Below are positions 7,649 to 27,042 of a stretch of DNA of 46,022 nt, one piece after another. Within the stretch, counting starts at the first letter, position 1. Each line of letters begins with the position of its first letter. The DNA is taken from the NCBI GenBank assembly GCA_030040315.1, contig JASHTY010000444.1, forward strand, positions 1 to 46,022, in the 5' to 3' direction. A program made the position numbers and the translations under genes. A model generated the notes under the pieces. That model ran no database searches and had not been told where the DNA came from. It saw only the letters and a program-made list of their open reading frames with translations. This DNA comes from Terriglobia bacterium. Its GTDB lineage: Bacteria; Acidobacteriota; Terriglobia; UBA7540.

Positions 7649-7678
7649 GCCGTTGGGAGTGCCCCGGCTTTCCGCGGG

Positions 7679-8348: not shown

Positions 8349-10063
8349 CTCTGCGAATTCCCCGCAAACAATACGCTGACCTGTACGGGCCCACCGCCGG
8401 CGACAGAGTCCGCCTGGCTGACACTGACCTGTTTGTCGAAGTCGAGCGTGATCTGACTGTCTATGGCGAAGAAGCGAAATTCGGAGGCGGCAAAGTCATT
8501 CGCGACGGAATGGGACAGTCCTCACGCGCGACCTCGGCGGATGGGACTCTCGATGTGGTTGTGACCGGCGCGGTCATCATCGACCACTGGGGAATCGTCA
8601 AGGCGGACATTGGCATTCGCGGCGGGAGGATCGTTGGAATCGGTAAGGCCGGAAATCCCGATGTCATGACCGGCGTCACACCCGGCATGGTGGTCGGCGC
8701 GGGAACGGAGGTGATCGCCGGCGAAGGCAAGATCGTGACCGCCGGCGGCATCGACTCGCACGTGCATTTCATCTGCCCGCAACTGGTGGAGACGGCACTC
8801 TCCGCCGGCATCACCACGCTGATTGGAGGAGGAACCGGCCCGGCCACCGGCACCAACGCCACCACCTGCACGCCCGGCCCTGCCAATCTCCAGCAAATGC
8901 TCCTGGCGGCGGATGGCCTGCCCATCAATCTGGGTTTTTTGGGGAAGGGCAACGCGTCACAGCCCGCTCCCTTGCGCGAGCAGATTGAAGCCGGAGCCAT
9001 CGGATTGAAACTCCATGAAGACTGGGGAACGACTCCCGCCACCATTGACTGTGCGCTGAGCGTTGCAGAAGAGTTCGATGTACAGGTGGCCATCCACACC
9101 GATACGCTGAACGAAGCCGGCTTCGTGCAGGACAGTATTCGAGCATTCAAGGGCCGCACCATTCACACCTATCACACGGAAGGCGCAGGAGGCGGCCACG
9201 CACCGGACATCATCATGGTGTGCGGCGAGCCGAATTGCCTTCCGTCCTCGACAAATCCCACCATGCCCTTCACGGTCAACACGCTCGATGAGCACCTGGA
9301 CATGCTGATGGTTTGCCACCACCTGAGCCCTTCGATTCCGGAGGATATTGCTTTTGCCGAATCGCGCATTCGCGCTGAGACCATCGCGGCGGAGGACGTT
9401 TTGCACGACCTTGGCGCGATCAGCATGATGTCTTCCGACTCGCAGGCCATGGGGCGCATTGGAGAAGTGATCATACGCACATGGCAAACCGCGGACAAGA
9501 TGAAGCGGCAGCGCGGCCCACTGCCCGGTGAGGCGGCGGGCAACGACAATCTGCGCGCGCGGCGGTACGTTTCCAAGTTCACGATCAATCCTGCAATTAC
9601 GCATGGGATTTCGCGCGAAGTCGGCTCGATTGAGGCGGGCAAGTTTGCCGATCTGGTCCTCTGGAAGCCCGCCTTTTTCGGCGTCAAACCGGAAATGATT
9701 GTGAAGGGTGGAATGATTGCGTGGTCGGTGATGGGTGATCCTAACGCGTCGATCCCCACGCCGCAGCCGGTGTTTTATCGGCCCATGTTTGGAAGTCTGG
9801 GCGGCGCGCTCCATCGCACTTCGCTGACTTTTGTGTCCACGGCGGCGCTGAGCGCGAGCATCCCCGCGCGGCTGGGATTGAAGAAAACTGCCGTTGCCGT
9901 CAGCCGCTGCCGCAATCTTTCCAAGCGCGACATGATTTTGAACGACGCGCTGCCGAAAATGGAAGTCGATGCGGAAACCTATGAGGTGCGGGCGGACGGT
10001 CAACTGCTGACGTGTGAGCCCGCGAAGGTTCTTTCGATGGCGCAGCGATATTTTCTATTTTAA
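8345..10063 (+). CDS. ureC: Urease alpha (catalytic) subunit UreC
   Basis: This is the nickel-containing catalytic subunit that hydrolyses urea to ammonia and carbamate, 572 residues, the usual length. The active-site set is complete: His139 and His141 ([10 protein letters not shown]), carbamylated Lys222 ([12 protein letters not shown]), His251 ([10 protein letters not shown]), His277 ([12 protein letters not shown]), the mobile-flap Cys324-His325 (MVCHHLSPS) and Asp365 ([12 protein letters not shown]). Numbers run about five above the Klebsiella enzyme. It starts with GTG inside the ureB stop. Nothing suggests inactivation. Confidence 0.98.
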
Positions 10064-10074
10064 GGGCGACTGCG

Positions 10075-10521
10075 ATGTTGGTGGTTGACCGGCTTCCTGA
10101 AATCGTCGCGCCCGAAGAACTGAACGGGAAGGAAGGAGACAAGCTCGTGCTCACCTGGGAGCAGCGCCGCTGGACGCGCGGACGACTGCTCACCGCGCGC
10201 GGCCGGGAAATTGCCATCGCGCTCCAGACGGGCTCGGTTCTCGAACCGGGCCGCATCGTGTGCGTCCAGCCGGAATGGTTTGCGACTGTGGAAGCTGCTC
10301 AGGAAAAAACTCTGCTCATTTCTCCCCCCGATCATCACACGGCGCTGAAGATTGCGTTTGAAGTGGGTAACCGCCATTTTCCGCTGGCGATTGAAGGTGA
10401 ACAGTTGTTCGTTCCGGATGATCCCGCCATGCTGCAATTGCTCGCGCGACTGGGAGTCCCGTGGGAGCGGCGTTTAGCGGTCTTCACACCGATCGGAATC
10501 GGTCACCAGCATGAACATTGA
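10075..10521 (+). CDS. ureE: Urease accessory protein UreE (nickel metallochaperone)
   Basis: This 148-residue protein would deliver nickel to the urease activation complex. It shows the UreE pattern: an N-terminal domain with LTWEQRRWTRGRLLTARGREIAIAL, then a C-terminal domain with the conserved GNRHFPLAIEGEQLFVPDDPAMLQLL, including the metal-binding His of GNRHF. The tail is short (GIGHQHEH) with only a few His, unlike the long His-rich tail of Klebsiella UreE. It lies 11 bases after ureC and overlaps ureF by 11 bases. Confidence 0.93.
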   Translation: MLVVDRLPEIVAPEELNGKEGDKLVLTWEQRRWTRGRLLTARGREIAIALQTGSVLEPGRIVCVQPEWFATVEAAQEKTLLISPPDHHTALKIAFEVGNRHFPLAIEGEQLFVPDDPAMLQLLARLGVPWERRLAVFTPIGIGHQHEH

Positions 10522-11203
10522 TTCCTTCCTGAGTCTTCTGCAGTTTTCCGACGGACTGTTTCCCGCCGGAGCGTATGCCCATTCGTTCGGCCTGGAGTCT
10601 TACGTCCAAAATGGAAGCGTGACGGACGCGGAGGGCGTTTTTGAATTCATCCGCTCGAGCATTGAAGGGTCGGTTGCCACGACGGATTTGATCGTGATGC
10701 TTTCCGCTCTCCGCTGCGTCCCCCGGAGCGGCGGTTTAGATGAATTGCTTCGGCTCGATGCCATGGTGGAAGCGATGAAGCCGGCGGAAGAACTGCGCAG
10801 CGCCAGCCGGCAGATGGGAAGGCAGATGATTCGGATTGGCGCGGCGCTCAGTGAGCATGAATTGCTCAGGTCATACTTTCAGGCCACGGAGTCGGACTCG
10901 ACCGCGGGGCACCATTGCGTGTGCTACGGAGGGGTGGCGGGTGTCCAGGGGTGGTCCGAGAATGACGCGGCCACGGCGTATCTTTATTCCGCCGCTTCGG
11001 CAATGGCGGGATCGGCGCTTCGATTGTCGCCGCTGGGACAGCTTCGCGGGCAGCAGTTGCTTTGGAGAATGCGGCCGGTGATTGCGCGGCTGGCAGGGGA
11101 TGCCGCAGGAAAAACCACGGCGGACATCTGGAGCTTTGTGCCGGGCCTTGAAATCGCCTCCATGGGCCACGCTCAACTGGAGGCAAGGTTGTTTCGATCA
11201 TGA
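10511..11203 (+). CDS. ureF: Urease accessory protein UreF
   Basis: This all-helical accessory protein of 230 residues acts with UreD and UreG in nickel insertion and is thought to control UreG GTPase. Family marks are [25 protein letters not shown] at the N-terminus, [13 protein letters not shown] in the middle, and [17 protein letters not shown] near residue 175. The start lies within the end of ureE. The stop overlaps the ureG start by 4 bases. Confidence 0.93.
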
Positions 11204-11811
11204 TTCCGAAGCCTCTCAGGATCGGCATTGGCGGCCCCGTGGGTTCCGGCAAGACGGCGTTGGTGGAGACGTTGTGCCTGCGGCTGCGCGATCGCTACAA
11301 CATCGCAGTCATCACCAATGACATTTACACGCGTGAGGACGCAGAATTTCTCACTCGACGTGGCGCGCTTGCACCGGACCGGATCATCGGCGTGGAGACT
11401 GGCGGCTGCCCTCACGCCGCGATTCGGGAAGACGCCTCCGTCAACCTTGAGGCGGCTCGCGAACTGAACCGGCGCTTTCCCAACCTGGCCCTGCTGATCA
11501 TCGAAAGCGGCGGGGACAATCTGGCTGCCACCTTCAGCCCGGAGTTGGTGGATGCAACCGTCTATGTGATCGACGTCGCGGAAGGCGACAAGATTCCGCG
11601 CAAAGGCGGCCCGGCGATAACTGCCTCGGGCCTTCTGGTCATCAACAAGATTGATCTTGCTCCGTATGTGGGCGCCGACCTGGGAGTTATGGATCGCGAC
11701 GCCAGGCGCGCCCGTGGTGAGCGTCCTTATGTCTTCACGAACCTCAAGAACGGCACTGGAGTTGATACCATCATCCGCTGGATCCAGCACGACTTGCTTT
11801 TCGAGTCTTGA
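11200..11811 (+). CDS. ureG: Urease accessory GTPase UreG
   Basis: This 203-residue SIMIBI-class GTPase powers nickel loading of urease. It has P-loop [13 protein letters not shown], the [13 protein letters not shown] motif, the metal-binding CPH in [30 protein letters not shown] and the guanine-specificity [13 protein letters not shown]. Length and motif order are standard. There is no His-rich N-terminal extension. Confidence 0.97.
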
Positions 11812-12640
11812 GCGTGTCGGGCGCGACGGCTATCTCTCACTCGAATTCAAGCGGCAGCGTGACCGCACCGCGCTGACGCGCTGCTGCTTCCGCCTGCCTC
11901 TGCAAGTCATGAAACCAAGTTACCTCGGGGATGACGGTTCGGCATTTGTGCTCATGCTCAACCCGACCGGGGGCATTGTGGGCGGCGACAGATTGAAGAC
12001 GGAAATCCGCCTGGGGAGCGGCTCGCACGCTTGTTTGAGCACGCCCTCCGCCACGACGGTTTACCGAACCCTGAATCGCCCGGCCAGCCACGAAACCAGC
12101 ATTCAACTGGAACAGGGCGCCATTCTGGAGTATTTCCCCGAACATCTGATCCCTTATCCCGGTTCGGCGCTTCGACAATCCATGCGAGTTCTAATGGGTC
12201 CTGGCAGTTGCCTGATCCTGAACGAGTCCTTCGCAGCCGGAAGAATTGCGCGAGGCGAAAACTGGAAATTCAACGAGCTTTCCAGCGACACTGAGGTGTG
12301 CATTGGCGGGTCGCCTGTCTACATCGGCAAGTCGAGAATTGTCCCGACGGAATTGCTTCCACACCGCCTGGGGTTCGCGGAGAATTACAACTATTTTTCC
12401 AATTTGCTCGTGGTTCACAATGCATTCAGCGCATGGAAGAATCTGGCCGATGAGCTTTCGCGCGTGCTGAATTCCGTCCCCGGCGTGCACGGGGGTGCAA
12501 GCTGCGGAGCGCGTTCAAGCTGCGTGGTTCGTGTTATGACTTCAACAGCCGCGCAATTGACGCAGGCAACACACAAGGTCTGGAGTTGCCTGCGCAGAAT
12601 CATATTGCAAAGTCCGCTAATTCCCGCAAGGAAGTATTAG
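11729..12640 (+). CDS. ureD: Urease accessory protein UreD (UreH)
   Basis: This is the scaffold protein of the urease activation complex. Family marks are [36 protein letters not shown] (the conserved GGxxGGD motif), [23 protein letters not shown], and a C-terminal [20 protein letters not shown] and PLIPARKY ending. The start is uncertain. Homology begins near GYLSLEF, around 11828, but no ATG, GTG or TTG lies in frame between there and ATG 11729, which is 83 bases inside ureG. Other in-frame starts further up are 11651 (TTG), 11666 (ATG), 11714 and 11717 (both GTG). Placing ureD last is less usual than ureD first. Confidence 0.9.
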
Positions 12641-12726: not shown

Positions 12727-14337
12727 CTACTGCATAACTTTAGTTGTAGAGGACGAAATTCCAAAGAGTTTCTGGATCTTTTCAAACATGCTTTTCTGCT
12801 GGCCCTTGAGCATGGCGGCCCGGGCTTCGGCGTCAAGGTCCTGGCGGATGGCTTCGATTTCCACCTTCCTGCGCGCCAGCAATTGGGACAGATAGCTGGC
12901 GATTTCCGGGCGGCCATGCAGGATATCGTTAAACGCCTCGCGGTCCAGACGATAGCATTCGGAGTCCTCGAGCGCTTTAAGGGATGCGCTGCGAGGCTCG
13001 CCGGTAAGCAGCGACATCTCCCCAAAAAAATCCCCGGCGTGTACGATGGCTACGGTTTTGTGATTGCCGGTGTCGGTGGAAATGAACACCTCGCCTGAGC
13101 CCTTGGTCAGGATGTAAAGCCAATGGGCTTGCGCGCCCTGGCGCGTCATCAATTCGCCTTTCATAAAAGGCGTGAAGCGCAGGCGTTCGGCCAGGTGAAG
13201 GCGCTCCGCGTCGTTCATTTCGCGGAACAGTTCCACCTTGGCCAGATCAAGCGCGCTCAGGCGCTGTGCGATTTCGTGCTCGTGGTGAAGCTTGGCGCGC
13301 TCCAGGTCGTGCGATTCCACGAAGGCGGTGACTGCCGGAACCGAGAGCGGAATGCCGGCGCGCTGCAGGGCGAAATAGATGCGGCTGCGCACCAGCGAAT
13401 CCGTGGGGTCGTCCTTGGCCAGATCGGTAAGCCAGTAGCGCGCGGCGTAGGAGCAGTAGCTCTCCTTGAACTCCATCAGCACGACGTTGGCGGGTGGGTC
13501 GCAGGCGGCGCCCTCCACGGGCTCGGTGTTCAGGGCGTCAGACACCACGCGAATGACTTCCGTGGGCGGCACGCGGAAATCCACGTTGAACCACACCCAG
13601 CGGCGCGTCTGGAGCGGCTGCCCGGCGCGCTGGCCCTGAATCAGCACCTGGGATTTGATCAGCACGCTGTTGGGGATGATGATGGTATCCCAGTTGCGCG
13701 ATTCAATGGCCACGTGCCGCCAGGTGATCTCCTTCACCTTGCCGGCCGTCTGATCGATTTTCACCCAGTCGCCCACCTGCAGGCTGTCGTCAATTTGCAG
13801 CACCAGGCCGCCCAGGATGTTCGAAAGGCTGTCCTGGAGCGAGAAGACAATCACACCCGTCATGACCGCGCCGGTGGCCACCAGGCCGGAAAGCGACAGG
13901 TTGTAGTGTGCCAGCAGCCATAGTCCTGCGCCCATGTACCCCGCTGCGACGATGAGGTCCCGCAGCACTTGCGGCGGCGAAAGCGGCGTGAAGCACAAGA
14001 CGACATCAAAAATAATGATGCTGGCCAGCTTGACGAACGCGCACCCCACCAGCAGGAATCCCGCGGCTTGCAGGGCTTTGGTGGCGTTGGGCATTTCAAG
14101 GGTCGACGGGATGGCCGAGATGGTCATCAGGATGATGCCCAGGGCGTAAAGGATCAGCGCGGTGCGCACGTGAGGACGCTGCCGCCGCGCGAACAGCGCC
14201 AGCAGCGCCGCTGGCACTAGAATGCCGATGGAGATTTCCAGGAAGCTGTCGCCGTGGGCAACAAGCTGAAAGTTCCGCCAAAAATCCAGGAGCGGATTGG
14301 CGTCTAGCAATATGGCCGGCGGAATCCAGGTGCTCAT
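12727..14337 (-). CDS. MscS-family mechanosensitive channel with cyclic-nucleotide-binding domain
   Basis: This 536-residue membrane protein has several hydrophobic helices in the first 185 residues. An MscS pore/beta region follows (GAVMTGVIVFSLQDSLSNILGGLVLQIDD, then QVGDWVKIDQTAGKVKEITWR and IIIPNSVLI). Residues about 390-510 form a cNMP-binding fold with phosphate-binding cassette FGEMSLLTGEPRSAS, keeping the Glu and Arg that contact cyclic nucleotide. The end is a charged helix. It probably acts as an osmotic-release or ligand-gated channel in the inner membrane. The pore-helix ASV(G/S)LA-like pattern is only partly conserved. It faces ureD tail to tail. The 86-base gap shows no clear hairpin terminator. 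Confidence 0.88.
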   Translation of the reverse strand: MSTWIPPAILLDANPLLDFWRNFQLVAHGDSFLEISIGILVPAALLALFARRQRPHVRTALILYALGIILMTISAIPSTLEMPNATKALQAAGFLLVGCAFVKLASIIIFDVVLCFTPLSPPQVLRDLIVAAGYMGAGLWLLAHYNLSLSGLVATGAVMTGVIVFSLQDSLSNILGGLVLQIDDSLQVGDWVKIDQTAGKVKEITWRHVAIESRNWDTIIIPNSVLIKSQVLIQGQRAGQPLQTRRWVWFNVDFRVPPTEVIRVVSDALNTEPVEGAACDPPANVVLMEFKESYCSYAARYWLTDLAKDDPTDSLVRSRIYFALQRAGIPLSVPAVTAFVESHDLERAKLHHEHEIAQRLSALDLAKVELFREMNDAERLHLAERLRFTPFMKGELMTRQGAQAHWLYILTKGSGEVFISTDTGNHKTVAIVHAGDFFGEMSLLTGEPRSASLKALEDSECYRLDREAFNDILHGRPEIASYLSQLLARRKVEIEAIRQDLDAEARAAMLKGQQKSMFEKIQKLFGISSSTTKVMQ

Positions 14338-14584
14338 GCGGTTTCAGTAAAAAGCTGTCGTGATTTTACCGCGAGAGGGTTGGCAGGCCAAGAAGGAAAA
14401 GCGGAAGTCAAAAGTCAGAAGTAATAAGGCCAAAGGCGCGTTAACTCTTCGCTTGGACCGCGGTCGGGGCGAAAACTGCGTGACGAAAAATCACTGAAAG
14501 TTTCGCACGTCCCCGGCGTTCTAGGAATGAGGGGCCGGGAGGGCCGCGCTTGGGGGCCGAGGTCGAGGTGGGAACTGCCGAAAC
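14338..14584. other. Short intergenic stretch with simple repeats
   Basis: This lies between two leftward genes. A purine-rich AAGTCAAAAGTCAGAAGT stretch near 14405 consists of degenerate direct repeats. No gene or clear terminator is seen. It must contain the promoter of the channel gene if that is not co-transcribed with the DUF1059 gene. Confidence 0.4.
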
Positions 14585-14767
14585 TCACTCATCCTTGATG
14601 GCGGCCTTGACCATGGCCAACATGGAGGGCGGAATCATGGAGACGGAAATTCCGTGGTCCTTTTCGGCGTGCTCGGCGGCAAGCTTCATGAGTTCATCTT
14701 CGGTTGCGGCACGAATTTCCTTAGGGCAGCCGGTGCCCAAGTCAGCGCAGCGCAGGACTTTGGCCAT
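14585..14767 (-). CDS. DUF1059 small protein
   Basis: This 60-residue cytoplasmic protein opens MAKVLRCADLGTGCP and continues with ATEDELMKLAAEHAEKDHGI and a final MLAMVKAAIKDE. That matches the DUF1059 pattern of two Cys near the N-terminus and a conserved H-A-x-x-x-H-G segment. A very strong ribosome-binding site (AAAGGAGG, complement of about 14772-14779) precedes the ATG. The function of the family is unknown. Confidence 0.85.
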   Translation of the reverse strand: MAKVLRCADLGTGCPKEIRAATEDELMKLAAEHAEKDHGISVSMIPPSMLAMVKAAIKDE

Positions 14768-15088
14768 GGATCCTCCTTTAGTCGATCGTGCCTTGGCAGT
14801 CAGGCGGCAAGTGGGGATCCTTCAGCTGACGGACGCCACAGCAAATCGCGGTGAGGATCATAACACCGCGCGAAGTCCGGGCGGGAATTTTCGTGCAAAT
14901 CGCATGGAGCCGTCGCTTTCGCGGATTGCATTTTGGGCGTCCCCTGTTATGATATTCGACGGGGCGCAGGAAATTGCAGGTCAGACGAGCGACAGGAGTT
15001 GGGGAACGCAACAAGCAGTTTGCGGGTTGAGGCAGATCATGGGAGAAGCGCCCGCGGCTCACCCTAAGAAACAGCCATCGAGTTACCA
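14768..15088. other. Divergent intergenic region before the secretion/pilus locus
   Basis: This stretch separates the leftward DUF1059 gene from the rightward filament locus, so it should hold promoters for both. Apart from the DUF1059 ribosome-binding site at its left end and the candidate promoter at 14926-14953, nothing distinct is seen. Confidence 0.5.
14926..14953 (+). promoter_or_regulatory. Candidate promoter for the secretion/pilus locus
   Basis: TTGCAT (14926-14931), 16 bases, then TATGAT (14948-14953). The -10 matches consensus at five of six positions; the -35 is weak. It lies 135 bases before the first gene of the locus. Confidence 0.3.
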
Positions 15089-17068
15089 GTGAGGATTGCC
15101 AGGCAACTCGTCAGTTTCGCAACGGGTTTAGTGGTTGGTCTTTGCCTGTATTTCCTTCCCAGGGCCAGCCGCATCCTTCTCCCCTCGTTGCGGCCGGTTT
15201 CGACCGCCGTGGCAAGTCCCGCTGATCATGCTTCCGCCTCCTCATCGATTCATAAACCCTCAATAAACCGGGCGGCATTCGCGGAAAGAAAAGCTTCCAG
15301 AGAGCCCCGTCAGGTGGTCAGGCGAATTCGTGCGATTCGAGATTCGCATCCCGCGCCTGAGACCTCTCAGGCGGATTCGCCTGAACCTGCAACGGCCTCG
15401 TCTACAATCCTCACCTCCCCCCCACCCCTGACCTTCAAACCCCTCGGTTATGTTGAGATTCCCGGCGGGCAACTGGAAGCGATTATCTCGCAAGAAAACG
15501 ATGTCCAGGTCGTTCATATAGGTGACCACATTTCGGGCCACTACCAGGTTACGAAAATCAGCCCTGAATCGGTTGAGGCCGATGATGAGGAGCTCACGCA
15601 GGCGCCCAGGGGCGCGCAGAGTGCCCGGGAATTAACGGCAGCAGCTATTCCCGAGCCGGCAAAGCCACAGGCGGTAGTTATTCAGGATGGGCCTGCACCC
15701 GGAGCGGCGGCGGCTGAGTCTCCGGCTTCCCCTAATTCGGAGCCCCACTTGGCTGGGGTCAACCCCATTCCTAACGGTGAAGGTGCAGCCGAAGCACAAA
15801 AGACCTTAGGGTACGTCGAACAGGCTGACGGAAGAATTCAGACTGTGATTGCCGACGCTGATACGGTCCGGCTGGAAACGGGTGCATCGACTGAGGTCGC
15901 GGCGGGTCCCACTCCAGCAGCCGGCTCGACTGTAGCGGCGGTCACTCAACCTTTGCCAGGTCGGGTGCCGAATCCGGTCGAAGCCGTGGCGGATGCAGAT
16001 ATTTTGCACTCTGACAACCGTACAGTCGGACCTGAGGTAATGGAGGTAGAGCCGACGGATTATCAAGCCAGTGCCGGCCGGTCGGCACCAGGGTTTGAAT
16101 CAATTCTCAGAGGGCAGATGGCCGGCAACCCAATTGCAGCCGACCCGACATCATTTATAAGCAGGGATGATTCGTTGGCATCGGGACCTGACCCGGCTTC
16201 GTCCTCACCTCCGGTATTAATGATTCCCCTGGGTTATGTCGTAAGACAGGACGGAGAATTGGCAGCGATTGTCCCGCACGACGATGAGATCTACATTGTC
16301 AGCCAAGGTGACCGTTTTGACGGGCAATATCGTGCCTTGACGGTCACGGCCGACGCAGTGGAGGTTGTTGAGGAACCGCCCCGGCAGGCGCATCCTCCGC
16401 CGATACGGGCACCCGTGCGGGCGCCGCCAGACGCGCCGTTTGTGCTTGCCGCCGCCCGGGATGGGGCGAAATCCTCCGCCAGGGATGATTGCATAAGATG
16501 CGAATCTCCTGCCGCAGGGGAAGTGTCTTCTAAATCAACTATCGAGGCTAGTTCTAAGCCTGAAATTCCAGCGTTGCAGGGCCGAATCGAAGCGCAAGGT
16601 CGGATAATCACCGTGAAAACTCAGGCCGAAGCATCGACGGACAGCGGAATTTACGTTTTTCAAAAGCTCGGCAGTATAGAAACTGCAGACGGTGAAACGA
16701 GGGCTATAGTGGCGGATGAATCGGACCTCTACCTGGTCAAGCAGGGTGAGACGTTTGCGGGCCGATACCGCGCGATCAGCGTCGAAGCTGCGTTCGTGCT
16801 GGCTGGGCGCGAGACTGCGGGGCCGCGGGAGGGGAACTATCTCTCGGCTCAGGCAGTATCCCCGGCCAAGGGTGCATCCAAGACTATGAACGGAAATCTG
16901 CATTTTCCGCTTTCTGCGTTGGAAGACCTGCAGGCTTTCCATCCGGGCCACGTCCTGGTTAATCCGGGTTCGGACGAACTGGGGCCCACTCCGTTAAACT
17001 TCTCGCTGACCGAGACCGGTTTGGAGCCAGAATCTATTGCGGCGGGGAATCCTGGTTTCAGGTTTTGA
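15089..17068 (+). CDS. Membrane-anchored protein with four PilP/GspC-like modules
   Basis: This 659-residue protein starts with GTG and one N-terminal helix (about residues 7-25), so most of it probably lies in the periplasm. A short module recurs: 'LGYVE..dG...AIi...d.v.vV..GD...G.Y+v..i....v'. Copies lie at about residues 117-165, 238-268 (incomplete), 379-428 and 524-572, joined by long Pro/Ala/Ser-rich linkers. The same module ends the PilP-like protein at 26488-27042. PilP and GspC HR domains have this kind of small beta fold and bind the secretin or the PilN/PilO complex, so I infer a multivalent link between inner membrane and secretin. The secretin gene follows 21 bases downstream. 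I do not know a named family with this architecture. Confidence 0.75.
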   Translation: MRIARQLVSFATGLVVGLCLYFLPRASRILLPSLRPVSTAVASPADHASASSSIHKPSINRAAFAERKASREPRQVVRRIRAIRDSHPAPETSQADSPEPATASSTILTSPPPLTFKPLGYVEIPGGQLEAIISQENDVQVVHIGDHISGHYQVTKISPESVEADDEELTQAPRGAQSARELTAAAIPEPAKPQAVVIQDGPAPGAAAAESPASPNSEPHLAGVNPIPNGEGAAEAQKTLGYVEQADGRIQTVIADADTVRLETGASTEVAAGPTPAAGSTVAAVTQPLPGRVPNPVEAVADADILHSDNRTVGPEVMEVEPTDYQASAGRSAPGFESILRGQMAGNPIAADPTSFISRDDSLASGPDPASSSPPVLMIPLGYVVRQDGELAAIVPHDDEIYIVSQGDRFDGQYRALTVTADAVEVVEEPPRQAHPPPIRAPVRAPPDAPFVLAAARDGAKSSARDDCIRCESPAAGEVSSKSTIEASSKPEIPALQGRIEAQGRIITVKTQAEASTDSGIYVFQKLGSIETADGETRAIVADESDLYLVKQGETFAGRYRAISVEAAFVLAGRETAGPREGNYLSAQAVSPAKGASKTMNGNLHFPLSALEDLQAFHPGHVLVNPGSDELGPTPLNFSLTETGLEPESIAAGNPGFRF

Positions 17069-17089: not shown

Positions 17090-18922
17090 ATGTTGACAAA
17101 AACTGTCCGGGGAATAGGGGCGTTGGCATTAGCCGCGACCTGCCTGAGCTGCGGAGGCGGTACCAACGCGGCATACACGCAGGGGCGCAAGGCGGAGGAG
17201 CGCAAAGACTGGGACACGGCTCTGGTGGACTACGAGAAGGCCAAGGCCGCCGAGCCGGCAAACCCGCTATACGTCCTTCATGAAGAGAACGCCCGGACGA
17301 ATGCGAGCATGCTGCACCTGAAGAACGGACGCCAATTGCTAAAGGACGGCCGGCCGGACGAAGCGGCGGGGGAACTACAGAAGGCCGCCCGCATTGACCC
17401 CTCCAACCGGGCAGCGGCCCAGGAGTTGGACGCCCTGCTAACCAAACAGGCAGAGGCCAAGAAGGCTCATACGGAGGCCATCCAGAAGGCTTTGAAGGCG
17501 GAAGGAGAGGAAAACCAGGGAGGGGTGGTAAAGCTCAAGCCACTGTCTGAGGCTCCGATTGTCCACTTCCACTTCAGTGGCGACAGCAAACAGGTTTTTT
17601 CCACCCTCGCCAAGCTGGCCGGAATCAACGTGGCGTTTACAACTGACTTCCGCCCCGGTTCTCTGAACGAGGACCTGGTAAACATCAAGCTGGAAGATGC
17701 CTTAAACCTTGTGGCGCTCCAGACTAAGACGTTTTGGAAGGCCGTCACACCTAACACCATCCTGGTGGTTCCCGACACCACTCAGAATCGGCAGCTCTAT
17801 GATACGCAGGTGGTGAAGGCCATTTACCTTTCCAATCCGCTGGCCGCCGCCGACCGCACGGCCATTACCACGGCGATCAAAACCGTCTTGAGGTTGCAGA
17901 ACGTTGTGGACAATCCCGATGCCAACGCCATCATCATCCGCGATACGCCTGCGAAGGTTGCGGAAGCTGAACAATTGATCCACAAATTGGACCGGTCCAA
18001 GGCTGAGATCATGATTGACATTAACATTGTCGAGGCGGATCGCGACCGCATCCGAGACTTGGGCCTGACGCCGGCAACGGTGAGCTCCAGCGGAACTATC
18101 ACGCCGGGGATTGAGGCTGGCGCAGCCTTCGCACCAACCACCACCGTGTCAGGCACAACGACCACTGCCTCCTCGGTCGCCATCAACACTCTGGGCCTTA
18201 GCGATTATGCTGTAGCCCTTCCGGGCGCAACCGCGGAAGCAATTCTGAGCGATTCCAAGACCCACATCATGCAGAGCCCTGAAATTCGCGTGACCGATGG
18301 CCAGGAGGCTAAGGTCAAGATCGGAAGCCGCATCCCCTATGCGCAGGGCAGCTTTCTCCCCTCCCTGGCAGGAACGACGACCAGTTCAAGCGGTTCAGTG
18401 GGCCTGCTGGCCAGCACGCAATTTCAATTTCAGGATATCGGTGTGAATCTGGACCTTACGCCCCACCTGCTTTCCACAGGAGAAATCGGCATCGACGCGA
18501 AAATCGAGATTATGTCGCTGGGAGCATCGATTACCGTGGGCGGGCTTAGTGAACCCACTTTCGGACAGCGCACGATCGATGCCCATTTTCGCCTGGAGGA
18601 AGGAGAAGTGAACCTCCTGGGCGGGCTGATCCAAAGGACACTGACCAACGCGGTCACTGGAGTCCCGGGCTTGGGTGACGTTCCGCTGATTCGCTACCTT
18701 TTTTCGCAGGAGGCGCACGAAGTTAACGATCAGGAAGTGCTGGTGATGATCACGCCGCGGGTGATCCGCCTGCCGGAACCTGCGGTTTCCGACACCTCAG
18801 CGGTTACCTCAAGTGGGGGTGGGGAGGAGGTTCCGGGAGGCATCGAGGGGCGCCCATTCGGACCTCCAGGGGTGCCGGGTCCGCAGCCTCCCCAGGCTCC
18901 CCAGCAGCCTCCGCCGCGATAA
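17090..18922 (+). CDS. gspD: Secretin (GspD/PilQ-like) with N-terminal TPR region
   Basis: This is the outer-membrane gate of the system, 610 residues. It has a lipoprotein-like signal (AATCLSCGGG; Cys18 or Cys21 as anchor). Two TPR-like helical pairs follow at about 28-115 (RKDWDTALVDYEKAKAAEPAN, then GRPDEAAGELQKAARIDPSN). A charged linker leads to an N0/STN-like domain (about 155-225), then an N1-like domain (about 232-310, with RLQNVVDNPDANAIIIRDTP). The secretin core is at about 385-575, with HIMQSPEIRVTDGQEAKVKIG and the closing VNLLGGLIQR, VPGLGDVPLIRYLF and EVLVMITPRVI motifs. The C-terminus is Gly/Pro-rich. TPR-fused secretins occur in acidobacterial-type loci. The stop overlaps the start of the next gene. 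Confidence 0.92.
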   Translation: MLTKTVRGIGALALAATCLSCGGGTNAAYTQGRKAEERKDWDTALVDYEKAKAAEPANPLYVLHEENARTNASMLHLKNGRQLLKDGRPDEAAGELQKAARIDPSNRAAAQELDALLTKQAEAKKAHTEAIQKALKAEGEENQGGVVKLKPLSEAPIVHFHFSGDSKQVFSTLAKLAGINVAFTTDFRPGSLNEDLVNIKLEDALNLVALQTKTFWKAVTPNTILVVPDTTQNRQLYDTQVVKAIYLSNPLAAADRTAITTAIKTVLRLQNVVDNPDANAIIIRDTPAKVAEAEQLIHKLDRSKAEIMIDINIVEADRDRIRDLGLTPATVSSSGTITPGIEAGAAFAPTTTVSGTTTTASSVAINTLGLSDYAVALPGATAEAILSDSKTHIMQSPEIRVTDGQEAKVKIGSRIPYAQGSFLPSLAGTTTSSSGSVGLLASTQFQFQDIGVNLDLTPHLLSTGEIGIDAKIEIMSLGASITVGGLSEPTFGQRTIDAHFRLEEGEVNLLGGLIQRTLTNAVTGVPGLGDVPLIRYLFSQEAHEVNDQEVLVMITPRVIRLPEPAVSDTSAVTSSGGGEEVPGGIEGRPFGPPGVPGPQPPQAPQQPPPR

Positions 18923-19407
18923 TGGACTGGCATATGCCAATTCGGCGCAATCGATTCTCGGACGAAGCGTTCATGCTCATCGAGCTGATCGCCGCGATTA
19001 CCATTTTGCTGGTGTTAACAACCCTGTGCCTGCCATTGGCGCGCAACCAGATTGTCCGACGCAGGGAGACAGAGCTCCATGAGGACTTGCGCATGATGCG
19101 TGAAGCAATCGACCAATACAAGGCCCATTCCGACCAGGGACTGATTCCTGTCAAGGTTGATGGCTTCGGCTATCCTCCCGATCTTCAAACCCTGGTGGAT
19201 GGCGTGCCCGTCAAAGGCAGCGCCAAGGGGAAGTGGAAATTCCTGCGCAAAATCCCCGTGGACCCCATGACCGGTAATGCGGACTGGGGGTTGCGCTCCA
19301 TGCAGGACGACGCCAATTCCAAGAGCTGGGGCGGCGAGAATGTGTTCGACGTATATTCGAAGAGTACGGGAACGGCTCTGGATGGGACAATGTATGCGGA
19401 CTGGTAG
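18922..19407 (+). CDS. gspG: GspG-like major pseudopilin (first)
   Basis: This 161-residue prepilin-like protein has a short basic leader, then FMLIELIAAITILLVLTTLCLPLA. This is a class III signal with Glu5 in place but Ala, not the usual Gly, before the cleavage point (DEA-FMLIE). After the helix come GspG features: RETELHEDLRMMREAIDQYK, a YPPDLQTLVDG turn, KGKWKFLRKIPVDPMTG, and a C-terminal FDVYSKSTGTALDGT-like loop. It should polymerise into a short periplasmic filament after processing. The ATG at 18922 overlaps the secretin stop (TAATG). Confidence 0.88.
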   Translation: MDWHMPIRRNRFSDEAFMLIELIAAITILLVLTTLCLPLARNQIVRRRETELHEDLRMMREAIDQYKAHSDQGLIPVKVDGFGYPPDLQTLVDGVPVKGSAKGKWKFLRKIPVDPMTGNADWGLRSMQDDANSKSWGGENVFDVYSKSTGTALDGTMYADW

Positions 19408-19909
19408 AGGCAAGAAAAGGCGAAATTCGAAAATCGAAATTCGAAACTCGCCAAGACAGCGCGCAATCCTGGAAGGGCTGGCCTCGAAATCCGAATTCCG
19501 AATTTCGAGTTTCGAAGTTCGGTCTTCCGTCGGTTTTACGTTGATTGAGCTGATGGTGGTGCTCGTGCTGATTCTGATTCTCGCCAGCTTCGCCATGCCC
19601 ATGTATCACGTGGCGGTGGTCCATGCGCGCGAGGCGGTACTGCGCGACGATTTGTTTACGATGCGCAAGCTCATCGACCAATACACGATCGACAAGCAGC
19701 GCCCGCCTAGCTCCCTCGACGATTTGGTCGATGCCGGATACCTGCGAGGCGGGCTTCCCGTTGACCCGTTTACCGAATCGAACGAAACCTGGGTGCCTGA
19801 TATCGAGGACGTGCCCATCAGCGCGGAACAGTCGACAAGCGGAGTCGTCGACGTGCATAGCGGTTCGGATGGCACCTCACTTGACGGCGCGGCCTACAAC
19901 ACCTGGTGA
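19394..19909 (+). CDS. gspG: GspG-like pseudopilin (second) with repeat-derived leader
   Basis: The mature part starts at a canonical site, VG-FTLIELMVVLVLILILASFAMP, followed by AREAVLRDDLFTMRKLIDQYTIDKQRPPSSLDDLVDAGYL and DPFTESNETW. Its C-terminal HSGSDGTSLDGAAYNTW closely echoes the first pseudopilin, so the two are paralogues. The only nearby start (ATG 19394) overlaps the first pseudopilin gene and gives a 47-residue leader, far longer than normal. That leader is encoded by CGAAATTCGAAA-type repeats (19421-19521). The repeat may have been inserted at the gene's 5' end and then read through. ATG 19382 is an alternative start. Confidence 0.82.
   Translation: MRTGRGKKRRNSKIEIRNSPRQRAILEGLASKSEFRISSFEVRSSVGFTLIELMVVLVLILILASFAMPMYHVAVVHAREAVLRDDLFTMRKLIDQYTIDKQRPPSSLDDLVDAGYLRGGLPVDPFTESNETWVPDIEDVPISAEQSTSGVVDVHSGSDGTSLDGAAYNTW
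19421..19521. repeat. Degenerate inverted repeat of the CGAAATTCGAAA type
   Basis: The left half (19421-19450) repeats CGAAATTCGAAA/ATCGAAATTCGAAACTCG. The right half (19484-19521) carries CCGAATTCCGAATTTCGAGTTTCGAAG, largely the reverse complement. It lies inside the leader of the second pseudopilin. Related GAATTTCGAGTTTC strings occur at 40524-40537 and near 40770, suggesting a genome-wide intergenic repeat family. Confidence 0.6.
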
Positions 19910-21320: not shown

Positions 21321-22526
21321 ATGGCCGAGTATGTTTGCAAAGTCGGGACGGATGCCGGGCGGGTGTTGACCCAGACGGAAGAGGCTCGCTCGGAGGATGA
21401 GGTTCGCCAGCGCCTGCGGGCGCAAGGGTACCTGATCTTTTCCATTCACACGAAAGACCTGCTGAGTTTCCAGGGGCGGAAGGGGCGGCCCGGCAAGATT
21501 CCGCCTGATGAATTCCTGATCTTCAACCAGCAGTTCTTGACCCTGTCGAAATCCGGCTTGCCGCTGCAGAAGTCGCTGGACTTGCTTGCGCACCAGACGC
21601 GCAGCGTGTCGCTGCGGCTTGCCATTGAAGCTGTCCGTGACAAGGTGCGGTCTGGTGCGCTGCTGTCGGAGGCCTTCGAGTCGGCCGGGAACTTTCCCAA
21701 GATCTATTGCGCCACCGTCCGCGCCGGAGAGCGCAGCGGCAGTCTGGACAAAGTCCTGAGTCAGTTCCTTGCCTATCAGAAGCAATCGCGCGGATTTCGC
21801 AAGAAGTTCATTTCCGCCCTGATTTATCCGGCCGTCCTGCTGGTCGTCCTGAGCATACTGGTCACGCTGGTTATCAATTTTATCGTGCCGCAATTTGCCA
21901 AGCTCTATGCGGATATGGATGTGGAGTTGCCGCAAATCACCACCTTCACCATTTCGGCGGCCATGGAAATCAAGCACTACTTTCTGCTCATTCTTTTGCT
22001 GATTGTGGGGGCGGTGCTGCTTTTCAGAATGGCGGCGCAATCCGCCAAGGCGCGGATGAAGTGGGAGCGTGTGAAGTTCAAGCTTCCGCTGATGGGTGGA
22101 CTGCTGCTGAAGTTTTCCGTGGCGGAGTTTGCCCGCACGCTCGCGGTGCTGCTGCAAGGCGGTACGCCGATTGTGGCTGCGCTGGAAACGGCCAAGGGTT
22201 CGGTTTCGAGCCCGTGGCTCTCCCTGGCGATTGGCCAGGCGCAGCAGGAAGTGGCGGCAGGAAAAGAATTGAGCGCGAGCCTGCGCATGAGCGGCTTTTT
22301 CCCGGACATCGCGCTCGATATGATGGAAGTGGGCGAAACCACCGGAGCCATGTCCAGCATGCTGGAAGCCCTGGCGGAGTTTTTCGAAGAAGACGTCGCG
22401 ATCGATCTCGAAACACGCCTCTCGTTGGTGGGTCCGGTCATGATCGCGCTGATTGCCGTCATCGTGGCATTTGTGCTGATTGCGTTCTATATGCCGCTTT
22501 TTTCGATGGCAGCGCAGATACATTAG
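21321..22526 (+). CDS. gspF: Type II secretion / type IV pilus platform protein (GspF/PilC)
   Basis: This 401-residue polytopic inner-membrane platform protein has two related GspF domains. The first covers about 65-190, with FNQQFLTLSKSGLPLQKSLDLL and RAGERSGSLDKVLSQFLAYQ. The second covers about 270-395, with EFARTLAVLLQGGTPIVAALE and MEVGETTGAMSSMLEALAEFFEE. Hydrophobic segments lie near 172-195, 218-238 and 372-395. It anchors the ATPase GspE and moves pseudopilins into the filament. No ribosome-binding site is seen before ATG 21321; the preceding bases are a CATCCTTCAGCCTTCATCCTT-like pyrimidine repeat. Confidence 0.93.
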   Translation: MAEYVCKVGTDAGRVLTQTEEARSEDEVRQRLRAQGYLIFSIHTKDLLSFQGRKGRPGKIPPDEFLIFNQQFLTLSKSGLPLQKSLDLLAHQTRSVSLRLAIEAVRDKVRSGALLSEAFESAGNFPKIYCATVRAGERSGSLDKVLSQFLAYQKQSRGFRKKFISALIYPAVLLVVLSILVTLVINFIVPQFAKLYADMDVELPQITTFTISAAMEIKHYFLLILLLIVGAVLLFRMAAQSAKARMKWERVKFKLPLMGGLLLKFSVAEFARTLAVLLQGGTPIVAALETAKGSVSSPWLSLAIGQAQQEVAAGKELSASLRMSGFFPDIALDMMEVGETTGAMSSMLEALAEFFEEDVAIDLETRLSLVGPVMIALIAVIVAFVLIAFYMPLFSMAAQIH

Positions 22527-22544
22527 AGGGATAAGGGATAAGTG

Positions 22545-24152
22545 ATGCCTGAGATCACGGTAGACGCCAAAGAAATAGAAGCTGCGCGGAAGCTTGCCGC
22601 GCGCTATCAATTCCAGTTTGTAGATTTGCGCGACTCGCGGCCTGACGCCGAACTGCTGCGGACCATTCCCCTGGAACTGATGCTTCATTACGAGTTTTTG
22701 CCTCTGGAGGGAAAAGATCATGAGCTGGTGATCGTCGTCGCTGATCCCACCAATCTGACCCGCCTGGACGAACTGGAAATTAAACTGGATCGCCACCTGG
22801 TGGTGCGCGTGGCGGCGCCCAGCCAGGTAAGGGATTTTTTGAAGCGAACGGAACCCTCGCAGCGGGTTTTGGACGACGCGACGGAAGAGTTCCGCCTGGA
22901 CCTGGTACGCGACGAAGAGGCCGCGGGGGAAGGGCTCTCACTCGAACATCTGGTGGACGAGGTTCGCGATGTCAACCCGATGATCCGTTTGGTGGACTCG
23001 ATCATCTTCGCCGGCCTCGAGCGGAGGGCAAGTGATATTCACATTGAGAGCCGCGACAATTCCGTGGTGGTGAAATACCGCATTGACGGCGTGCTGCAGC
23101 AGGCGATGGCTCCGTTGGCGCGCGAGTATCAGTCGAATCTCATCACCCGCATCAAAGTCATGTCGGAGCTGGATATCGCCGAGCGCCGCGTGCCGCAGGA
23201 TGGCCGGTTTCGAGTGCGCTACCGCGGCCGGCCCATCGACTTTCGCGTGTCGATTATGCCCTCCATTCACGGTGAAGATGCCGTGCTGCGTATTCTCGAC
23301 AAGGAATCACTGCACGAAAAGTTTCACTCGCTACGTTTAGAGGTGCTGGGTCTTGCCGAGCGGGAAATGCGAGCCTTCCGGCGATTCATCCGCGAGCCTT
23401 ACGGCATGGTGCTGGTTACGGGCCCCACGGGAAGCGGCAAGACCACCACGCTTTATGCCTCACTTTCCGAAATCAAATCGGACGAGGACAAAATCATCAC
23501 CATTGAGGATCCCGTGGAGTATCAGGTGCGCGGCGTCACGCAGATTCCAGTGAACGAAAAGCGCGGACTGACCTTCGCGCGCGGGCTGCGCTCGATTCTG
23601 CGCCACGATCCCGACAAGATCATGGTGGGCGAGATTCGCGACAACGAGACGGCGCAAATCGCCATCCAGTCGGCGCTCACGGGTCACCTGGTATTCACCA
23701 CCGTGCACGCCAACAACGTGGTAGACGTTCTCGGCCGCTTTCTGAACATGGGCGTTGAGCCCTATAACTTCGTTTCCGCGCTGAATTGCATCATGGCGCA
23801 GCGGCTGGTTCGAACCATCTGCGGCGTCTGTAAACGTGAGGGTCAGGTGTCGAACGAACTCCTGGAGGAGTCCGGCCTGAAAGCCGAGGAATGGAAGGAC
23901 GTCGTCTTCTACGAAGGCGCGGGGTGCCAGGAATGCAACGAGACCGGGTTCCGCGGCCGCACGGCGATTGGCGAACTGCTGGCCCTTTCCGATAACATTC
24001 GCGAAATGATTCTGGCCAAGCGCCCCACTTCGGAAATTCGCCGCGCCGCGCACTCGGAAGGCATGCGCTCGCTGCGGGAGTCGGCTCTGGAGAAGGTCCG
24101 CCTGGGTGTCACAACGCTGCGGGAAATCAATAAGGTTACGTTTGTGGAATAA
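22545..24152 (+). CDS. gspE: Assembly ATPase (GspE/PilB)
   Basis: This 535-residue hexameric ATPase drives filament assembly. The N-terminal part (about 1-150) is a GspE/MshE-type N-domain. The catalytic part has RRASDIHIES, GPTGSGKTTTLYA (Walker A, about 293-305), the Asp box TIEDPVEYQVRGVTQIPVNEKRGLTFARGLRSILRHDPD, Walker B DKIMVGEIRDNETA (about 356) and the His box LTGHLVFTTVHANN. A tetra-Cys zinc motif is kept: CGVC near 426 and CQEC near 461. All catalytic motifs are intact. It belongs to the assembly rather than the retraction (PilT) type. ATG 22545 follows GGGATAAGGGATAAGTG. An adjacent GTG at 22542 is equally possible. Confidence 0.95.
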   Translation: MPEITVDAKEIEAARKLAARYQFQFVDLRDSRPDAELLRTIPLELMLHYEFLPLEGKDHELVIVVADPTNLTRLDELEIKLDRHLVVRVAAPSQVRDFLKRTEPSQRVLDDATEEFRLDLVRDEEAAGEGLSLEHLVDEVRDVNPMIRLVDSIIFAGLERRASDIHIESRDNSVVVKYRIDGVLQQAMAPLAREYQSNLITRIKVMSELDIAERRVPQDGRFRVRYRGRPIDFRVSIMPSIHGEDAVLRILDKESLHEKFHSLRLEVLGLAEREMRAFRRFIREPYGMVLVTGPTGSGKTTTLYASLSEIKSDEDKIITIEDPVEYQVRGVTQIPVNEKRGLTFARGLRSILRHDPDKIMVGEIRDNETAQIAIQSALTGHLVFTTVHANNVVDVLGRFLNMGVEPYNFVSALNCIMAQRLVRTICGVCKREGQVSNELLEESGLKAEEWKDVVFYEGAGCQECNETGFRGRTAIGELLALSDNIREMILAKRPTSEIRRAAHSEGMRSLRESALEKVRLGVTTLREINKVTFVE

Positions 24153-25141
24153 TGGATATGGACGGTAGATACATGGACTGGAGCAACTTGAAAAAGCGGT
24201 TGGGCAGGGGCGGCAGGGCTCAGACAAATCACTTCGTGGCCCCAACCTTCGCGCTGGACCTGGAGCCGGGCTTCGTCGCGGCCGCGCGGCTCAGCACCTC
24301 CAAACGCGTGGTACAGAGCGTGGGTGTGGGCGAGCTTTCCGCCGGGGCGCTTACGCCTTCCGCCAATAAGTCCAACATCTCGGACGCTGCAGCGGTGCGT
24401 CGAACCGTCTCCGAAGTCGCGCAAAAGGTGGGCAGCAGCGGCAGCCGGGTTGGCCTGCTAATTCCCGACGCGGCGGCGCGCATTGCTCTGCTGCAATTTG
24501 AAACGTTGCCGGACGATCATCAGGAGGCAGAGACTCTGGTGCTCTGGCGAATGCGCGAGTTCCTGCCGTACACGCCGGAGGAAGCCCGCCTGACTTTTCA
24601 GGTGGTGGCCAGGCAGCCCGGCTCGCTGGAGGTTCTGGTCGTCGCGGTGCGAGGCTCGGTGCTGGCGGAGTATGAAGCCGGAATGGGCGGCGTCAACGGC
24701 GCGCCCGCCCTGGTGTTGCCGGCAAGCGTGGCAATCCTTCCCCTGCTTCCCGAAGGCGAGGGCGGCCAGTTGCTCCTTCACCTCTGCACGGGAGCGCTGA
24801 CAGCCGTGGTGGTGGCCGCAAATCGGCTGCGCTACTGGAGGACGCGCGCGCTGGGCGACGACTTGCAGGCCAACCTTGCCGAAGTGGCGCGCGAAACCAG
24901 CCGCGTGCTCGCGACTTGTCAGGACAATCTGGGCGTGCAGATCGAGAACGTCTGGTATTGCGATCGGACCTCCGGTGAAGGCAGGCCCGCAATTGCGCAG
25001 GCCCTGGCGCAGACTGTGGGTCATGACCTTCGCTCTCTGCCGGTGAAGTTCCTGCCGGCCTCCGGGCTTCCTTCCGGACAGCTTGAGGTATTCGAGCGCT
25101 TCGGAATGCCCTTTGCCGGGCTTTTGGCGAACCTGAACTAA
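24152..25141 (+). CDS. pilM: PilM/GspL-like cytoplasmic assembly protein
   Basis: This 329-residue protein has an actin-like fold pattern similar to PilM and the cytoplasmic part of GspL. It shows PTFALDLEPGFVAAARLS near residue 30 (the 'D-x-G' first strand), VGLLIPDAAARIALLQFETLP, LVLWRMREFLPYTPEEARLTFQV and a final MPFAGLLANLN. No membrane helix is seen, as expected for PilM with a separate PilN. It starts in the gspE stop (TAATG). Later in-frame ATGs at 24158 and 24173 are alternatives. The weak similarity makes the PilM name partly dependent on gene order (M-N-O-P). Confidence 0.8.
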   Translation: MDMDGRYMDWSNLKKRLGRGGRAQTNHFVAPTFALDLEPGFVAAARLSTSKRVVQSVGVGELSAGALTPSANKSNISDAAAVRRTVSEVAQKVGSSGSRVGLLIPDAAARIALLQFETLPDDHQEAETLVLWRMREFLPYTPEEARLTFQVVARQPGSLEVLVVAVRGSVLAEYEAGMGGVNGAPALVLPASVAILPLLPEGEGGQLLLHLCTGALTAVVVAANRLRYWRTRALGDDLQANLAEVARETSRVLATCQDNLGVQIENVWYCDRTSGEGRPAIAQALAQTVGHDLRSLPVKFLPASGLPSGQLEVFERFGMPFAGLLANLN

Positions 25142-25146: not shown

Positions 25147-25980
25147 ATGAAGATAGCTCTCAATCTTTCCCCCCGGTCGAGCGCGCGCGATCGTTACGCG
25201 CTGGGGTGGGGGATTCCTGCGACGCTGTTGGGTGTGGCGGCGCTGGTGATTCTGTCGCGAGCATCGCTCCGCGAATACAGGGAATACCGAACGGCACAGA
25301 CGCAGCTTACTCAAATCCAGGGACGCGTGGACGACCTCGCCCGGCAGGAGGCGGACATGCGCCGCAAGCTGGATGAGCCCGCGGCTCGCGACCTGCGAAC
25401 CCGGGCCAAGTTCCTCAACGAACTCATCGCCGAGAGGCGGGTTTCCCTCGCGGAAGTCAGTTCTCGCCTGGCAGGGCTTCTTCCCAGCGACGCTCGACTG
25501 TCGAGTCTGGCTTTCGCCTCGCCCAAGGGTCCAACTGGGGACTACGGCGTCCGCATCGGGATCACCGCCAAAGGCGAAGAAGCCATCGAAACGTATATGA
25601 ATGATCTGGAGGATTCACCCGATTTCAAGGATATCTCCATAGAGAATCAGACGATCAAGGAGGATCCCTCCCAGGGTTCGGAGATTAACGTGGTGTGCAA
25701 CGCCCGCTATCTTCCGGGCGCCCAACTGGAATCGGAAGCAAAGGATCAAGAAACGTCGCCGGAATCCGGCAGTGATAAAGCAGAGGCCGCAAAACTCGCG
25801 GCGGCCAAAGAAAAGAAGCCCGGGCAAAAGAAAACCGAGGAAAAGAAGCCCGAGGTCAAGCCGCCCTTGGTGAAGACGCCGAAACCAGGCGGTATTCCAC
25901 CGGCGCCTGGGCTCGGACCTCCCAAAATGGAGATGAAAGGTGCGGAAAAGCCGACGCCAAATAGTCAACCGGATCATTGA
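25147..25980 (+). CDS. pilN: PilN-like inner-membrane assembly protein
   Basis: This 277-residue protein opens MKIALNLSPRSSARDR, close to the conserved PilN start INLLP, which binds PilM. One membrane helix follows (about 22-40), then a coiled coil (YRTAQTQLTQIQGRVDDLARQEADMRRKL) and a ferredoxin-like periplasmic domain (about 80-195). The C-terminal 80 residues are an unusual Lys/Pro/Glu-rich tail (KEKKPGQKKTEEKKPEVKPP), longer than in typical PilN. It lies five bases after pilM and overlaps the next gene by 41 bases. Confidence 0.82.
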   Translation: MKIALNLSPRSSARDRYALGWGIPATLLGVAALVILSRASLREYREYRTAQTQLTQIQGRVDDLARQEADMRRKLDEPAARDLRTRAKFLNELIAERRVSLAEVSSRLAGLLPSDARLSSLAFASPKGPTGDYGVRIGITAKGEEAIETYMNDLEDSPDFKDISIENQTIKEDPSQGSEINVVCNARYLPGAQLESEAKDQETSPESGSDKAEAAKLAAAKEKKPGQKKTEEKKPEVKPPLVKTPKPGGIPPAPGLGPPKMEMKGAEKPTPNSQPDH

Positions 25981-26491
25981 GGTTTTCGGCGCGGGGTTTG
26001 TGGCGCTGGACCTTGTGGCGTTTTTCGGAGTCTACAGGCCGCTCGCCATTAGGCTTGACACTCAGGCCCACCACCGCGCGGAATTGCGCCAAACGATCAG
26101 AAATCTGCAAGTGCGTGTGGAGGTGCTGAAGAAATATGAGGCCGCCCAGCCCGATGTTGCGAAAGCGCTGGAGGATTTTGCCAGCGATCGCATCCCACCG
26201 CGGCGCGAAGGATATTCCACCGCAGACCACTTTCTTCATAAGGTGGCGGACGCCGCTGGAGTTAAGCTGGGAAATATTGAATTCAAACTTGAGCCGCAGC
26301 ACAAAGATCCACTGGAACGGTTGGAACTTGAAATCGCGGCGGATGGGCCGTACCCGGGCTTGATCAAGTTCGCGCACAGTCTTGAAACCGCCGATGACTT
26401 CATGCTCGTCCGCGAATTCCAGTTCACGCCGGGAGAGAATTTCGGTCCGATAAGTTTGAAGCTGAAGGCGGACCTTTACCTGACGCCATGA
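25940..26491 (+). CDS. pilO: PilO-like inner-membrane assembly protein
   Basis: This 183-residue protein has one membrane helix (about 13-32), a coiled coil (TQAHHRAELRQTIRNLQVRVEVLKKYEA) and a periplasmic domain with LEIAADGPYPGLIKFAHSLETADDFMLVREFQF. That is the PilO arrangement and pattern. It starts with GTG inside pilN and overlaps the next gene by 4 bases (ATGA at 26488-26491). It should form a heterodimer with the PilN-like protein. Confidence 0.8.
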   Translation: MRKSRRQIVNRIIEVFGAGFVALDLVAFFGVYRPLAIRLDTQAHHRAELRQTIRNLQVRVEVLKKYEAAQPDVAKALEDFASDRIPPRREGYSTADHFLHKVADAAGVKLGNIEFKLEPQHKDPLERLELEIAADGPYPGLIKFAHSLETADDFMLVREFQFTPGENFGPISLKLKADLYLTP

Positions 26492-27042
26492 AACTATCTG
26501 CTGGCATCCAAAAGTGGGGAAGCGCCGTGCTGGGCCTGGTAGCCATGTTGCTGGTGGCCAACCTGGTGGCCCAGTATCGGAGCTGGCAGCCAGGGAATTC
26601 CCGCGCGCACGCCGCCGCGCTCATTGAACCGCCGAGGAATTCGGAGAAGAGCACCGCACACGCGGCCGACGACTTGGCTCAATACGATCCCACGATTCAC
26701 TTTGACGAATTGAAGGATCTGGATTCACGCCCGTTGCCAGACCAGCCTCGTGACCCGTTTCTGTTCGTGGGCGAAACCGCTCCGGCGCCGGCGCCCGCGC
26801 CAAAGGCGGCGCCGGCTCCACCTCCTGCACCCCCTCCCCCGCCGCCCATCAAGGCGAATGGTTACAACGAACTACCCGGCGGAAAGGGTGAAGCCATGAT
26901 CACCTTCAACGAAGACGTGATGGTGGTTCACGAGGGAGATCCAATCGGCGATAAATACAAGGTGGTGAAGATTACACCCACAAACATAGTGATTGAAGAT
27001 GTCCAAACACAGAAGCAAACTGAATTGTCGTTCCCGCAATAA
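26488..27042 (+). CDS. PilP-like protein with one copy of the repeated module
   Basis: This 184-residue protein has one N-terminal helix (about 11-29), then a flexible region with an RDPFLFVGE motif (about 88-96), as PilP and GspC have before their folded domain. A Pro/Ala-rich linker (about 98-121) follows. The C-terminal module (about 124-170) contains GGKGEAMITFNEDVMVVHEGDPIGDKYKVVKI. The same module occurs four times in the protein at 15089-17068. The protein has a membrane anchor rather than the lipoprotein Cys of classical PilP, closer to GspC. It likely joins the PilN/PilO complex to the secretin. Confidence 0.78.
   Translation: MKLSAGIQKWGSAVLGLVAMLLVANLVAQYRSWQPGNSRAHAAALIEPPRNSEKSTAHAADDLAQYDPTIHFDELKDLDSRPLPDQPRDPFLFVGETAPAPAPAPKAAPAPPPAPPPPPPIKANGYNELPGGKGEAMITFNEDVMVVHEGDPIGDKYKVVKITPTNIVIEDVQTQKQTELSFPQ

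Follow-up and report, generated by a model that had tools for sequence, protein, structure and literature searches.

How the six-fold inner-membrane platform of a secretion machine joins its 15-fold secretin is a standing question, to which the current answer is single HR domains carried on independent linkers (PMC6882859). A gene on contig JASHTY010000444.1 of a Terriglobia bacterium bears on this question. The contig, 46,022 bases long and called here the window, comes from a genome that is 73% complete. It carries an operon similar to those for type II secretion, with M-N-O-P genes of the kind found in pilus systems. Directly before the secretin gene stands a gene whose product (the multi-HR protein) has several HR domains on one natural chain, and so makes it possible to test directly if the joint is strengthened or ordered by the linking of HR domains. 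With a probability of roughly 0.6, we consider this protein to be an extra inner-membrane-anchored tether or scaffold of the Acidobacterial type II secretion-like system, comparable to GspB alongside GspC.

The open reading frame (ORF) starts with GTG and comprises 659 codons. An earlier reading of the DNA letters without database searches (the sequence-only reading) had described a 659-residue protein with a single-helix anchor, and the full-length AlphaFold model indeed contains one N-terminal helix. The arginine-rich start followed by the hydrophobic helix would anchor the protein in the inner membrane with its N-terminus inside. Cys19 is invariant, but it lies within the hydrophobic helix with no proper lipobox before it, and the segment is taken as a membrane anchor. 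To locate the modules, a profile was used that was made from 31 single-module proteins from other loci, with repeat-protein sequences excluded. It matched four stretches, residues 111-171 (59.3 bits), 238-260 (5.2), 374-433 (43.7) and 525-570 (29.9), while the top score among 2000 shuffles of the protein was 3.6 bits. Because all four matches exceed every shuffle, the possibility of chance repeats was dropped. Mutual similarity of the full modules corresponds to z values of 15-20 versus shuffled copies.

In the full-length AlphaFold model, folded modules are located at about 114-166, 376-428 and 521-574, with a predicted local distance difference test (pLDDT) of about 90-95 for most blocks. 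They coincide with modules M1, M3 and M4, and with residues 117-165, 379-428 and 524-572 proposed previously. M2 is modelled as three strands at 238-264 (pLDDT about 75), and everything outside the helix and the modules is disordered. Complete modules are about 55 residues long and are separated by linkers of about 65-110 residues. The initial estimate of about four copies holds for the number of stretches found by the independent profile, although only three of them (M1, M3 and M4) are complete and M2 is a half. A search for direct repeats at the DNA level of the gene detected none, and the module duplications are consequently old.

The model of the module, derived from 56 aligned modules, is a small all-beta domain with a core pLDDT of about 90. 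In VIA-align comparison, PilP or GspC-HR chains occupy ranks 1-8 and 11 of 847 aligned chains, with Z values of 3.3-5.2 (2y4y 5.2, 3oss 4.9, 2ivw 4.7) against 3.5 or less for unrelated rows; these values are modest, as expected of a domain of 55 residues. No unrelated fold appears above the first eight ranks. Of the 50 Foldseek matches listed, 3oss_C leads in both TM-score (0.55/0.62) and probability (0.60), and the full-length model returned weak matches only, GspC-HR and PilP among them. In profile-profile comparison, the modules aligned to 17 Acidobacterial PilP sequences with a probability of 90 and a score of 35, whereas 100 column-shuffled PilP profiles scored 17 at most and the reversed profile 15. 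Closest of anything tested are single-HR proteins of Acidobacteriota operons resembling the type II secretion system (hhalign 99.7%). No HR structure was matched when the PDB was searched by sequence with the 659-residue protein or with the profile of the module, so the fold assignment rests on structure and profile-profile comparison. A PilP/GspC-HR fold, as anticipated in the sequence-only reading, is well supported by these predictions at the level of the domain.

In the operon, PilP's place is held by a gene following PilO, whose product of 184 residues has one C-terminal HR module. It has a counterpart in nearly all genomes of the Terriglobia family, and across the phylum the matches are mostly single. 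Since the operon owns this ordinary single-HR protein, the repeat protein is an additional multi-HR paralogue, and its candidacy for the system's own GspC or PilP was dropped.

No family in Pfam or NCBIfam covers the full protein, consistent with the initial impression of a layout without a named family, and no protein with several HR domains was found in the literature searched, many subscription papers being outside that search. Individual modules match T2SSC, T2SSB, PilP, pilP_fam and XpsN weakly, with chance families at similar E-values. The one-helix anchor and the HR fold are shared with GspC. Yet GspC has one HR per protein as platform link, often followed by a PDZ domain or a coiled coil, whereas here there are three and a half and the link place belongs to the separate single-HR protein. 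For the GspC family PF11356 (T2SSC), M1 attains E 0.0033 and 17.7 bits, below the cut-off of 27, and the family had no match across 99 genomes of the phylum. PilP, sharing the beta fold, is a one-domain lipoprotein which works with PilN and PilO, unlike the multi-domain protein without a clear lipobox described here; in PF04351 the best module has E 0.034, under the cut-off, and the full protein has no match.

Functionally, the multi-HR protein is most like GspB, although membership in GspB, GspC and PilP families fails curated cut-offs. GspB/OutB, which comes as a second HR protein, binds N0 and acts as a scaffold of the secretin; in a survey it had a periplasmic HR domain per protein and was present in gamma- and betaproteobacteria (PMC9239104). 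Both are HR proteins additional to GspC, with a single transmembrane helix and periplasmic HR (here a predicted topology), and binding to N0 is expected here. GspB differs in its single HR, its proteobacterial hosts and a gspA or pilotin gene usually nearby. The multi-HR protein, in contrast, has three and a half HR domains and is found in Acidobacteriota, directly before a secretin gene; no gspA or pilotin gene adjoins, the neighbours being a mechanosensitive channel (12727-14337, - strand) and the secretin. In the GspB family PF16537 (T2SSB), three modules match (best E 0.0044) under the cut-off, and the full protein does not match.

The expected binding partner is encoded only 21 bases downstream. 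The secretin contains an N0 domain: STN matches were obtained in 4 of 14 orthologous secretin segments (best E 0.001), PilQ structure 4ar0 matches the region with E 0.012, and the match to the TIGR02515 PilQ model begins at secretin residue 167. In the GspC-GspD crystal structure, HR has six strands in two three-stranded sheets, and most of the contact with N0 is made by the first three strands (PMC3169554). These three strands are the ones kept in M2. The half-form is present in every same-genus homologue that reaches the region and in two other genera, and is for that reason no accident of this genome; it represents a minimal natural test of the HR part sufficient for N0 binding.

As a tether, the multi-HR protein would be held in the inner membrane by its short N-terminus and one helix, and the three complete HR domains and the three-stranded half-HR would be strung along its flexible linkers through the periplasm. 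HR domains would bind secretin N0, and several of them on one flexible chain could hold several subunits of one ring. The operon's single-HR protein would retain the GspC/PilP job of joining the pore to the PilM-N-O platform. More tentatively, it is conceivable that the protein defines an undescribed class of secretin tether, in which the HR chain grips several subunits via avidity and the half-HR, with only its N0-binding sheet, acts as a strand-pairing clip.

The same contacts might instead serve regulation, if extra HR domains occupied N0, displaced the single-HR protein and so tuned the number of platform links. In the complex from K. pneumoniae, PulC HR domains bind independently of one another, each to one N0, and three of the fifteen N0 sites are free on average (PMC6882859). 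Modelled HR domains of OutB and OutC take equivalent positions on N0 (PMC9239104), and the modules are closest to the operon's own HR type, so the binding site could be common. Competition of this kind nevertheless seems unlikely to us, as a structural part would explain at least as well why the gene stays beside that of the secretin and why three of its modules are old and position-specific.

Conservation of the locus was followed in 39 genomes of the family. The multi-HR gene immediately precedes a secretin gene in 11 draft genomes that span three genera of a single Terriglobia family (G000-G005, G007 and G008 from the window's genus, and G016, G010 and G044), in line with the position emphasized in the sequence-only reading. 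Neither outcome that would have counted against that reading, a fold unlike PilP/GspC-HR or homologues never close to a secretin gene, was observed. In G005 the stop codon is followed by the start of the secretin gene, the contig of G006 ends within the multi-HR gene, and the gene is divided between two ORFs in G007 and G010. Named relatives with the gene, which occurs in some soil Acidobacteria, are metagenome-assembled genomes of Terriglobia or Acidobacteria, and isolate names of two suggest bog and fen samples. The module order full-half-full-full recurs in same-genus relatives and in two more genera (G016, G044), with M3 missing in G001. In genera without the multi-HR gene, the operon begins with the secretin wherever the contig reaches far enough.

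A gene directly upstream of the secretin could also act in delivery or assembly of the secretin in the outer membrane, in the manner of a pilotin or the GspA/GspB pair; GspB in Dickeya helps secretin targeting (PMC9239104). Secretins of the family (17090-18922 and orthologues) have a TPR region behind a conserved lipobox-like Cys (e.g. LSCGGG, ACAPGN), a sequence feature which suggests that they are lipid-anchored and may target themselves. This makes a pure pilotin role of the multi-HR protein less likely. Combined with the lack of the gene in most genera, it leaves an assembly function improbable.

A tree of 74 modules separates the single-HR proteins from a group (support 95/88) that unites the modules of the repeat proteins, including the relative at locus L043. 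In the genus of the window, groups are position-specific for M1 (99/88), M3 (97/93) and M4 (100/99), and duplications accordingly predate this genus; the tree relies on only 62 columns, and its deeper branching order is not supported. The ratio of nonsynonymous to synonymous substitution rates (dN/dS) between close relatives is 0.08-0.22 in M1, M2, M3 and M4 where dS is measurable, with about 0.2 in M1 and 0.12-0.18 in M2. Every module is under purifying selection, M2 being as constrained as the full modules, and the possibility that M2 is a decaying domain was dropped on this ground. Linkers evolve fast (dN/dS mostly 0.3-0.8).

The long, fast-evolving linkers and a C-terminal tail conserved within the genus, to none of which a role is assigned, would be compatible with a recruiter of substrates or pilins. 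Secreted proteins would then be gathered at the pore entrance by the modules or by the proline/alanine-rich linkers, and secretin binding would be secondary. However, constraint sits on the HR modules and not on the linkers, and low constraint is expected of spacers; we find recruitment a little less probable than regulation. The same pattern of selection bears on a lineage-specific repeat expansion of little function, hitch-hiking in the operon. Limited occurrence, in three of about 18 genera (four if L043 is counted), and the apparently split frame in G007 and G010 agree with it, but the dN/dS of every module, the half one included (about 0.1-0.2), and the position-specific module clades across the genus make it highly improbable.

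Several observations weigh against the tether or scaffold that we prefer. All Foldseek E-values obtained with the module model are above 0.7, non-significant for so small a domain, and all single-module matches to known HR families stay under curated cut-offs. Acidobacteriota single-HR proteins of about 180-240 residues, encoded after PilM-N-O, have one module closed by an extra last strand (motif such as LPIPQ), which is missing from the repeated modules; the latter are hence not identical copies of the single-HR domain. In most genera of the family, the same operon lacks the multi-HR protein, which is thus not essential to the machine. In a fourth genus (G019, L043:3223-4527), a 434-residue relative has one fuller and two incomplete HR modules, all weaker, and is adjoined by a gene resembling that of ribonuclease J and not by a secretin gene.

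Genera without the multi-HR gene have a different protein, comprised of AMIN-like domains and one C-terminal HR module and encoded apart from the secretion operon within the stretch covered (Table 1). The AMIN-like domains were confirmed by Pfam in L037 and are assigned by resemblance at the other loci. This protein may be an analogue of GspB in which one part binds the cell wall. Each of two further proteins of about 340 residues (L035:8847-9869 and L093:9728-10777) combines one C-terminal HR with a long linker and one likely membrane helix, and no secretin adjoins within the stretch covered.

Table 1. Coordinates of the multi-HR gene, its modules, the secretion operon and AMIN-HR proteins at other loci.
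Feature	Position	Strand	Remarks
Multi-HR protein	15089..17068	+	659 residues; predicted inner-membrane anchor; four modules on disordered linkers
N-terminal transmembrane helix	15092..15166	+	residues 2-26, AlphaFold; arginine-rich start, then hydrophobic stretch, kept in relatives
M1, complete HR-like domain	15425..15598	+	residues about 113-170
M2, half HR domain	15794..15880	+	residues about 236-264; first three strands only
M3, complete HR-like domain	16208..16378	+	residues about 374-430
M4, complete HR-like domain	16643..16816	+	residues about 519-576
Secretin	17090..18922	+	Pfam Secretin 6e-36, Secretin_N, TPR; lipobox-like Cys, TPR region, then N0, N1, secretin domain
Secretin N0 domain	17537..17785	+	secretin residues about 150-232; expected HR partner
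GspG-like pseudopilin	18922..19407	+	TIGR01710 1e-6, under cut-off
Second pseudopilin	19277..19909	+	N_methyl; TIGR01710 1e-9; listed ORF begins upstream of true start
T2SSF platform protein	21321..22526	+	
T2SSE/PilB-type ATPase	22542..24152	+	with MshEN domain
PilM-like	24152..25141	+	by position; Pfam match under cut-off
PilN-like	25147..25980	+	by position; Pfam match under cut-off
PilO/GspM-like	25940..26491	+	by position; T2SSM_b match under cut-off
Single-HR PilP/GspC-like protein	26488..27042	+	184 residues; HR at 26848-27012; weak NCBIfam GspC_delta match
AMIN-HR protein	L037:344-1720		
AMIN-HR protein	L039:10315-11727		
AMIN-HR protein	L042:10065-11672		
AMIN-HR protein	L098:8108-9598		
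AMIN-HR protein	L100:8066-9622		
AMIN-HR protein	L101:9105-10475		
AMIN-HR protein	L103:8390-9940		

Immediately 5' of the multi-HR gene, the ORF at 14550-15092 is without a Pfam or NCBIfam family match and is probably not a real gene. Further upstream in the window (381-12640), genes of a urea-type ABC transporter are followed by a urease cluster (gamma, beta, alpha, UreE, F, G, D). Soon after the secretion operon, a Matrixin-like (Peptidase_M10) protein is encoded at 29965-31164, a possible substrate. Two adjoining outer-membrane barrel proteins of 1012 and 1013 residues, with carboxypeptidase-regulatory-like domains, are located at 32124-38396.
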